Assembly (NCBI RefSeq): GCF_000443995.1
Contig: NZ_AUMC01000010.1
Span: forward strand, 744,001 to 808,000
Source of the DNA: Bacteriovorax sp. BAL6_X
GTDB lineage: Bacteria > Bdellovibrionota > Bacteriovoracia > Bacteriovoracales > Bacteriovoracaceae
Direction of reading: 5' to 3'
Length of the DNA stretch: 64,000 nucleotides
Shown here: piece by piece, positions 10,377-62,205 of the stretch
How positions within the stretch are numbered: position 1 is the stretch's first letter
How the letters are laid out: each line of letters opens with the position of its first letter
Made by a program: the position numbers and the translations under genes
The notes under the pieces: model-generated
What the model saw: only the letters and a program-made list of their open reading frames with translations
Database searches by the model: none
Told to the model about the DNA's origin: nothing

Positions 10377-10892
10377 ATGGACCAATTACAAGAAACATTT
10401 GAAGAAATATTAGAAAAAGTAGAATTTAAGAAAATGGATCAATTTGAAGAATTTCTTCATAAATGCATTCATGTCTCTAATGATTCATCTAAGAGTACAT
10501 ATGCCGTCTATGAGAATATGGTATTCAAATTAGATGCATTCTTTAAAGGTTTCGTTAATTTTCAAAATGAATTCGGTAAAGATAAGAAGTATATCGCAGC
10601 AGTTCATGCCCTAAGTGCCATTTGCTATGGCCTAGGAATTGAGCTTGAAGACGAAGAGCTTTTCATTATTTACCATCTAAAAGACCAAGGTAAATTCAGA
10701 AAAAGAGAAAAAGATCTTCACTCAGAACTTAAAAACCTTTGGGCCGGCTATCCTTACCAAGAATTTGCCATGGCCGATGTGGACTTCTCTCACTCATTAA
10801 AAAACTTAATGCGTGCAAAATTCATCGACTACCGCCGCGGAAACCTTCACATCAATCAGTCTTTGATTATACGTTTTAAAGATCGCTATTAA
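10377..10892 (+). CDS. Hypothetical cytoplasmic protein
   Basis: 171 residues, charged, helical, without signal peptide or membrane segments. I do not recognise a family. The pattern near the end (SLKNLMRAKFIDYRRGNLHINQSLIIRFKDRY) could be a small winged-helix-like tail, but that is a guess. The ribosome site is weak (GAAAG). The stop codon TAA is followed after two bases by the first unit of the 119-bp repeat array. Confidence 0.6.
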   Translation: MDQLQETFEEILEKVEFKKMDQFEEFLHKCIHVSNDSSKSTYAVYENMVFKLDAFFKGFVNFQNEFGKDKKYIAAVHALSAICYGLGIELEDEELFIIYHLKDQGKFRKREKDLHSELKNLWAGYPYQEFAMADVDFSHSLKNLMRAKFIDYRRGNLHINQSLIIRFKDRY

Positions 10893-10894
10893 GC

Positions 10895-11251
10895 ACCCGC
10901 AAAATTGGCCGCCCAAAGGCGGGCTATTGTTTGCGGTGCTAGGCCCCTTACTCTTCAGCTAGAGATTTACGTCGAGAGCGAGGGTTCAAGCCCGAGCGGT
11001 TCGTCTCAAGGCCACCCGCAAAATTGACTGGCCAAAGCCAGTCTATTGTTTGCGGTGCTAGGCCCCTTACACTTCAGCTAGAGATTAGTGTCGAGAGCGA
11101 GGGGCCAAGCCCGAGCGGTTCGTCTCAAGGCCACCCGCAAAATTGACTGGCCAAAGCCAGTCTATTGTTTGCGGTGCTAGGCCCCCAACTCTTCAGCTAG
11201 AGATTAGCGTCGAGAGCGAGGGTTCAAGCCCGAGCGGTTCGTCTCAAGGCC
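10895..11251 (+). repeat. Three tandem 119-bp structured repeats
   Basis: Units start at 10895, 11014 and 11133 and the period is exactly 119 bp, giving 357 bp without interruption. Each unit contains: an outer stem CCGCAAA/TTTGCGG enclosing a 7-bp inner hairpin with loop CAAA; a conserved GGTGCTAG and, about 20 bases on, AGCTAGA; then GGG-ttcaa-CCC-like pairing inside a GAGA.../...TCTC stem. Units 2 and 3 share the inner stem GACTGGC/GCCAGTC, while unit 1 has GGCCGCC/GGCGGGC: different bases, 6 of 7 pairs kept. GC content is far above the surroundings. A diverged solo copy lies at 62031-62205. Confidence 0.85.
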
Positions 11252-11301
11252 AATGGGAAAGTCTACGCAATATAAAAACGATATTTTCACGAAGTGAAAA
11301 T
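11252..11301 (+). repeat. Tail of the repeat array with closing hairpin
   Basis: After the third unit comes AATGGGAAAG-TCTACGC and then the perfect hairpin ATTTTCAC-GAA-GTGAAAAT (11283-11301). The solo copy at 62 kb has the same order: CAATGGGAAGG, GCTGCG, then a different perfect 8-bp hairpin. This tail is therefore part of the element; only the 119-bp part has been amplified here. Confidence 0.65.
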
Positions 11302-61514: not shown

Positions 61515-62029
61515 GCACTCAAGCAACTTACCAAACAGGTGAGCAACTAACATTAGGAAAATGGTTTAAGAATATCTGGACTGGAATTAGAACAGTTACT
61601 AAAGGTCTAGGGATTACTTTTAAGTATGTATATGGTGTAAAGCCTGTAACAATTGAATATCCAGAAGTAAGAGAAGAGCTACCAGCTAACTCTCGTTCAC
61701 GTCTATTTAATGACGTAGAAAACTGTATTTCTTGTTATCAGTGTTCAACTGCTTGTCCAGTTGATTGTATCTACATTACAGCAGTAAGACGTGAGAAAGA
61801 TGCTCCAGCTCTTAAAACAAAGAGTGGAACACCAATCAAGTTAGATCTTATGCAATATACGATTGATACTGCCCTTTGTTGTTACTGTGGTCTTTGTACT
61901 ACTGTTTGTCCAACTGAGTGTCTAACTCACACGACAGACTATGAATTCTCTCAATATACTCTTGATGAGATGAAGTACGACTACCTTGCGCCAGATATTA
62001 AAAAATGGCGTGAGCGCATTGTTAAATAA
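61511..62029 (+). CDS. nuoI: NADH-quinone oxidoreductase subunit I
   Basis: 172 residues. Two [4Fe-4S] clusters (N6a, N6b) bound by CISCYQCSTACP and CCYCGLCTTVCP. Hydrophobic N-terminus (TLGKWFKNIWTGIRTVTKG) associates with the membrane arm. Last of the block; no nuoH, J, K, L, M or N follows. The repeat at 62031 begins one base after its stop. Confidence 0.94.
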   Translation: MSTQATYQTGEQLTLGKWFKNIWTGIRTVTKGLGITFKYVYGVKPVTIEYPEVREELPANSRSRLFNDVENCISCYQCSTACPVDCIYITAVRREKDAPALKTKSGTPIKLDLMQYTIDTALCCYCGLCTTVCPTECLTHTTDYEFSQYTLDEMKYDYLAPDIKKWRERIVK

Positions 62030-62030
62030 G

Positions 62031-62205
62031 CATCCGCAGTATCTTGCGTAAGCAAGATATGATGTGGTGCTAGCTCACTAATACTTTAGCTAGAAAATTA
62101 TATTCAACAAGCCTGCATTTATGCAGGCTTTGTTGTCTCTGGAGCAATGGGAAGGGCTGCGTTATACTCAAATAGCTTCAGCTATTTGATGTTTCCTCAG
62201 CGCAG
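62031..62205 (+). repeat. Solo copy of the structured repeat, downstream of nuoI
   Basis: Parts align in order with the array at 10.9 kb: TAAGCATCCGCA at the stop codon; inner hairpin ATCTTGC-GTAA-GCAAGAT; outer CCGCA/TGTGG; GGTGCTAG; TTTAGCTAGAAAATT; hairpin GCCTGCA-TTTA-TGCAGGC; TGTCTC; CAATGGGAAGG; GCTGCG; final hairpin CAAATAGC-TTCA-GCTATTTG (62169-62188). Hairpin sequences are unrelated to those in the array while their positions and pairing are kept, which indicates selection on structure. Confidence 0.7.
62106..62135 (+). terminator. Hairpin able to end the nuo transcript
   Basis: AACAA-GCCTGCA-TTTA-TGCAGGC-(t)TTGTT, followed by GTCTCT. It is also the middle hairpin of the structured repeat. 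The T-tail is short, so termination is likely but not certain. Confidence 0.5.

Follow-up and report, generated by a model that had tools for sequence, protein, structure and literature searches.

Integron attC sites form a two-part hairpin with an internal loop close behind the stop codon of a gene. In Escherichia coli, approximately 11% of predicted REPs are no more than 15 nt from a stop codon, and REP hairpins at this distance stall ribosomes and lower translation (PMC12306157). Exonucleases are blocked by 3′ stem-loops (PMC7509114). BOX elements of Streptococcus pneumoniae are described as small modular repeats with a variable tandem inner module, predicted RNA structure, chromosome-wide occurrence and low mobility (PMC3049150), and ERIC/RU-1 elements are intergenic repeats of approximately 127 bp that are co-transcribed with upstream genes and have a reported effect on mRNA stability (PMC2229807).

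Here we describe a real and apparently undescribed family of small structured repeats in the marine predatory genus Halobacteriovorax, represented by a tandem array in a 64,000-nt stretch of the genome of Bacteriovorax sp. BAL6_X (hereafter, the window). Like stop-proximal REPs, the repeats are palindromic and dispersed, with a GC-rich hairpin beside a stop codon and within the transcript. Unlike those REPs, they hold the stop codon inside the stem, at zero offset in all scored copies, and they have a second long-range helix and a conserved tail; the genes for REP-associated Y1 transposases (RAYTs) occur here with other palindromes. The described traits of BOX are all shared, but the BOX account used here, with which we compare by description only, reports no fixed position relative to stop codons. 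The repeats are also like ERIC/RU-1 in the traits given above, with a possible effect on mRNA stability, whereas neither the TA target sites nor the terminal inverted repeats typical of such MITEs are evident, and orientation and offset are fixed; the element ends, read by eye as 5′ TAAGC and 3′ AAAGTTA, form no clear inverted repeat. The conserved AAC/GTT core of attC sites is lacking and no cassette arrays were seen. The placement rule is without precedent in the literature that we searched, in which we found nothing on such repeats in Halobacteriovorax.

A tandem array that begins inside a stop codon

The array follows a gene for a 171-amino-acid protein of unknown family on the plus strand (10377–10892 in the open reading frame list; no Pfam or NCBIfam match). 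TRF reports 3.0 head-to-tail copies at 10894–11252 with a period of exactly 119 bp, 92% matches and 0% indels, as an earlier note on this DNA had described, and the contiguous units leave no room for spacers, which bears out the same note and leaves a CRISPR array unsupported. The GC content of 0.568 is well above that of the window (0.372) and of the 500-bp flanks (0.344 and 0.320), again as claimed. Between 6 and 12 positions differ between units, so these are not identical copies produced by assembly.

The array had been thought to start two bases past the stop codon. Instead it begins inside TAA 10890–10892, which forms the 5′ foot of hairpin 1, the last A pairing with T10940. Hairpin 1 of unit 1 (10892–10940) consists of an outer stem (10892–10903/10930–10940), an ATT/TATTG internal loop, an inner stem (10907–10913/10918–10924) and a CAAA loop; the stems covary in alignment A2. 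It is followed by the 5′ strand of the long-range helix P3 (GGCC, 10942–10945; partner GGCC, 11010–11013), which covaries across 19 copies, by a AGCTAGAGA block (10957–10965) with variants in many copies, and by the hairpin 2 region CGAGAGCGAGGGTTCAAGCCCGAGCGGTTCG (10973–11003), common to the copies behind ahcY, rpsA, atpD and a gene for a lipoprotein-like protein. Unit 2 (11011–11131; hairpin 1, 11011–11059; P3, 11061–11064/11129–11132) and unit 3 (11130–11251; hairpin 1, 11130–11178; P3, 11180–11183/11248–11251) are each supported by TRF and by a match to covariance model R2.

The core element ends in a conserved tail, AATGGGAAAGT (11252–11262), which is also found 3′ of the etfA, groEL, nfu, M3 peptidase, guaA and S1-domain-protein copies. 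The shared tail hairpin of the earlier note is real: it is an optional hairpin, ATTTTCACGAAGTGAAAAT (11283–11301), and its CACGAAGTG core recurs behind the rpsA and guaA copies with stems that differ from those in the array; the core occurred 0 times in 400 kb of other sequence sampled from the same genome. The suggestion that an internal part of a larger element was amplified does not hold, as each amplified unit comprises almost the complete element (hairpin 1, P3 and hairpin 2). A further copy in the window (62027–62155, plus strand; R2 match of 43.1 bits) starts at the stop codon (62027–62029) of a gene that we call nuoI-like on the basis of an NCBIfam match under the curated cut-off; it has hairpin 1, P3 (62073–62076/62141–62145), hairpin 2 (62111–62128) and the tail AATGGGAAGG. 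The main point missed by the earlier note is that stop codons anchor the family, which has about 18 dispersed copies, and that the array arose where one of these was amplified locally.

RNA structure and covariation

The order of parts is hairpin 1 (outer stem, ATT(G)/TATTG internal loop, inner stem), a (TG)CTAG linker, P3 enclosing hairpin 2 and, usually, AATGGGAAAGTTA. Alignment A2 comprises 16 sequences; of the 18 pairs in hairpin 1, 12 show double changes. Paired cells amount to 94.9%, compared with 78.1 ± 1.7% after shuffling (0 of 500 shuffles as high) and 29–42% in slid controls, a percentage that is flattering because the structure was partly derived from the aligned sequences; less affected are P3 and the count of double-change cells, 48 compared with 17.4 ± 3.3. 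P3, which was picked by eye, occurs in four versions (GCTCC/GGAGC, GGCC(C)/(G)GGCC, GCGCC/GGCGC and ACCTC/GAGGT) and keeps 93 of 95 pairs over 19 copies; when its strands were re-dealt, the mean was 78.8 and the maximum in 2,000 trials was 87. Hairpin 2 also varies in a compensatory manner among copies. On the sense strand, G·U outnumbers A·C by 7 to 3, counts too small to settle the strand. The fusA copy of G005 (L038) is more complex, with a hairpin 1 that has grown multi-branched and a P3 pairing that is now TACCTC/GAGGTA.

Within the array, the inner stem of unit 1 was said to differ from the others at nearly every base; compared with unit 2 it differs at 3 of 7 pairs (6 of 14 bases). That 6 of the 7 pairs are kept was correct, as read from the sequence: two of the changed pairs are compensatory and one is a G·G mismatch. 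The significance of single-unit folding is only moderate (z = −0.55, −4.16 and −3.10 for units 1, 2 and 3). The case for structure therefore rests on covariation across copies, which strengthens as copies are added, the opposite of the loss that the earlier note had named as grounds for refuting it.

No Rfam 15 family matched the array or eight copy-bearing loci at gathering or relaxed thresholds, in keeping with the earlier failure to place the array in a known non-coding RNA family; the best sub-threshold match, to Hammerhead_1 on the minus strand, had an E value of 0.81 and 15.9 of 34 bits. The only tRNA found was an unrelated tRNA-Arg. Nor does hairpin 1 have the form of an intrinsic terminator, as TAGGCC or TAGCTCC follows it directly, without a T run, and separate terminators lie downstream in several loci; a terminator scan flags the inner stem alone because TATTGTTT follows it.

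Anchoring on stop codons

All 18 scored loci with hairpin 1, from this genome and three congeners, start exactly at the in-frame stop codon that ends the upstream gene, with sense orientation and offset 0, and so fall well within the 15 nt that defines stop-proximal REPs. The copy behind the gene for an S1-domain protein (L124) likewise begins at the stop codon in the sense orientation. Copies on UAA have the form TAAGCA..TGCTAG, and the last A of the stop codon is paired with U in 12 of 12. In copies on UAG the whole codon is paired with CUA, within stems such as TAGCGTC/GACGCTA, TAGCGAA/TTCGCTA and TAGATGCGTC/GACGCATCTA. The exceptions are units 2 and 3 of arrays, which are off any stop codon, and the groEL copy of this genome, which has lost hairpin 1. 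We considered whether hairpins at stop codons are a general habit of these genomes: among 360 genes sampled here and 338 in G007, there was only a weak excess at offsets 0–4, with candidates of another type. As the 360 other genes show no comparable habit, anchoring is a property of the family.

A dispersed family in Halobacteriovorax

The 3.23-Mb genome of the window contains about 18–20 copies, and about 18 genes carry one; these counts rest on searches and samples, of which the first was an unbiased BLASTN of the array. That search gave 15 matches in its own genome. Covariance models R1 and R2 gave 17 matches with hairpin 1, to which the 3′ half at groEL and the S1-domain-protein copy add two more. 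A second array with a period of 117 bp lies behind etfA, and a third, in the related species G003, lies behind an nqrF-like gene with a period of 153 bp that includes a terminator. In the etfA array (G000:C9:300418–300903), units 2–5 lack the 5′ half of hairpin 1, and AATGGGAAAG can pair with TTCCC before the next unit, rebuilding a hairpin. Tandem repeats of approximately 58 bp (GCGACACTTTAGCGAAGCTAAAGTTAGC plus a spacer) at G000:C10:273700–274000 lie directly behind an element, and the same hairpin occurs behind the M3 peptidase copy.

The element is also present in three congeners, including G005, and was not found in the other genomes of the family and phylum that we searched; a lone match in G015 (E = 0.03) is terminator-like. 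When 84,980 species were scanned for the pattern, 42 contigs were obtained, with the real element only in two contigs of Halobacteriovorax sp. ARS37; the remainder are chance matches, judged by stem and flank. The hairpin 1 pattern matched no viral contig, so a phage origin is unsupported. The earlier alternative of a structured RNA or a mobile palindromic family is thus borne out by the lack of an Rfam match, by covariation that rises with more copies and by dispersed copies. The check proposed in that note, with covariance models and searches of this genome and its relatives, found the dispersed copies, but these are not REPs in the strict sense, because the RAYT genes here have other palindromes.

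Hosts in the window’s genome, some named by reading the sequence, include etfA, ahcY, atpD, rpsA, guaA, ychF, nfu, a RelA/SpoT-family gene, an M3-family peptidase gene, the nuoI-like gene and genes for the S1-domain protein, GroEL (half an element), a lysine-rich protein, a lipoprotein-like protein and the 171-amino-acid protein. Elsewhere, hosts are ahpC and fusA in ARS37, and groEL and the nqrF-like gene in G003. Thirteen of 15 hosts exceed the 90th percentile of 369 background genes for codon usage like that of groEL, atpD and rpsA, a reference that consists of three of the hosts themselves and was scored leave-one-out; without this set, the figure is 10 of 12. The ranks under 90 are those of the window gene (76) and guaA (84).

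Turnover and a second sequence type

Inner stems, P3 types, hairpin 2 types and tails are freely combined among copies, which points to recombination between them. The same approximately 50 nt (TAGCGTCATTG..GCTAGCTCCCCAT) lie behind rpsA in the window’s genome and behind ahpC in ARS37. Because unrelated genes, also in other species, carry near-identical modules, modules and whole elements appear to have spread between genes and species, in addition to local tandem amplification. Occupancy is mostly not conserved between species, and therefore no single site needs the element. The exception is ahcY, which has it in two species of the genus and lacks it in G003, G004 and G005. At groEL, stop-anchored two-part hairpins of differing sequence occur in five further genomes (G003, G005, G007, G010 and G012); the groEL hairpins of G012 and G005, used as queries, found no further full copies.

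A second, unrelated sequence type (CAAAATGC..GCATTTTGACG, GCTTTACCGTTGTGC, GCATGGGCGG; type II) occurs in the same bacterial family, with several copies exactly on stop codons. In the Halobacteriovorax marinus-like genome G007 (3,435,933 bp), 106 nt of type II sequence are identical behind groEL and rny, both on the stop codon; ssb, in two species, and an fkp-like gene also carry type II on the stop codon, and other type II copies are unanchored. The type II loci are L221, L228 and L232 (groEL, rny and fusA of G007), L224 and L236 (ssb of G001 and G004) and L223 and L230 (G004). At G001:C10:393500–401500, two near-identical type II elements, of which one is on the stop codon of ssb, flank a RAYT gene at a distance of approximately 4 kb from each other. 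The window’s genome has four divergent single-copy RAYT-like genes (L262–L265) with palindromes of their own nearby, such as GGTGCCATGCWCCTTTGGTTTCGCA and GTACCCGCGCCCCT, and such REPs also occur behind some elements.

Possible functions and origins

We estimate a probability of about 0.5 that this non-autonomous modular repeat family provides a cis-acting 3′-UTR structure that acts on translation termination or on the stability of the mRNA 3′ end. Placed at the very start of the 3′ UTR, the element would act on its own mRNA. To terminate, a ribosome would have to open the foot of hairpin 1, which would close in the absence of a ribosome and bury the stop codon. The stable pair of helices may then block 3′-to-5′ exonucleases at the end of the coding region, slow the ribosome at the stop codon, or both, effects for which the 3′ stem-loops and stop-proximal REPs cited above are precedents. 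The exact offset, the covarying helices, the codon usage of the hosts and the recurrence at ahcY and groEL favour this reading. An intrinsic terminator or the next gene of an operon lies downstream of several copies, which places these inside the transcript. Stabilization and ribosome slowing are predicted to have opposite effects on output; the bias to highly expressed genes leans towards stabilization, although selfish insertion into busy transcripts would give the same bias. Counting against a role in cis, occupancy apart from ahcY mostly differs between species, units 2 and 3 of the arrays touch no stop codon, and the extra units of the G003 nqrF-like array lie beyond the terminator.

It is possible, if somewhat unlikely, that the repeat is a selfish mobile element of no benefit to the cell, inserted at stop codons by some enzyme that recognizes, and thereby conserves, its structure. 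If abundant mRNAs supplied an RNA or single-stranded DNA intermediate for insertion, this would explain the sense orientation, the zero offset and the preference for highly expressed genes, and patchy occupancy across species, near-identical copies at unrelated genes (among them the identical groEL and rny copies of G007), tandem amplification and module shuffling all fit. Neither such an enzyme nor an autonomous copy was found, however, and a preference in insertion would, by itself, hardly put all copies on in-frame stop codons while sparing every other intergenic TAA or TAG. Nor would insertion alone remodel the outer stem to match a particular stop codon, as in the UAG copies that pair with CUA. 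Mobilization as a REP or REPIN by a RAYT seems quite improbable: Y1_Tnp genes are present (four in this genome and at least one in every Halobacteriovorax genome searched) and the hairpins are REP-like in having internal loops and in often being intergenic, yet the palindromes that flank these four RAYT genes are others, such as GGTGCCATGCWCCTTTGGTTTCGCA beside the C6 gene, and model R2 found no copy in the stretches of about 6 kb around them. Approximately 20 copies rather than hundreds, all at offset 0, are also unlike REP placement.

The 3′ UTR is a common source of small RNAs, and a trans-acting family of approximately 120-nt units, released from there and arrayed for dosage, would suit both the position and the exposed conserved blocks (the CTAG linker, AGCTAGAGA and AATGGGAAAG). 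We consider this improbable, as it would leave the start inside the stop codon unexplained, several copies lack the exposed blocks, and promoter-like matches near the array are at chance (19 compared with 15.5 ± 3.9). A signal for stop-codon readthrough is hardly credible: the hairpin does begin at the stop codon, and 16–44 open codons follow several copies, but in 5 of 18 copies another in-frame stop comes within about 10 codons, and the frame in which the element is read differs between UAG and UAA copies, so there is no conserved peptide. A more ambitious and rather unlikely proposal joins function to spread in a transferable RNA element that targets stop codons, is gated by termination, and moves from one highly expressed gene to another, and from species to species, along a route in which stop codons are recognized. 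Each terminating ribosome would open the foot that contains the stop codon, and the foot would close once translation stops; in this way the RNA-decay machinery would be informed of ribosome traffic.

Repeats of this small interspersed kind are commonly taken to be loosely placed clutter, whereas every scored copy here is base-exact in position, oriented with the gene and built around the stop codon, and most copies lie behind genes with the codon usage of high expression. How such a repeat locates stop codons is the question that follows. At least one more sequence type in the same bacterial family, type II, is similarly placed at groEL, rny, ssb and an fkp-like gene. The exact placement offers a clean natural test of how structure at a stop codon affects termination, recycling and mRNA decay.
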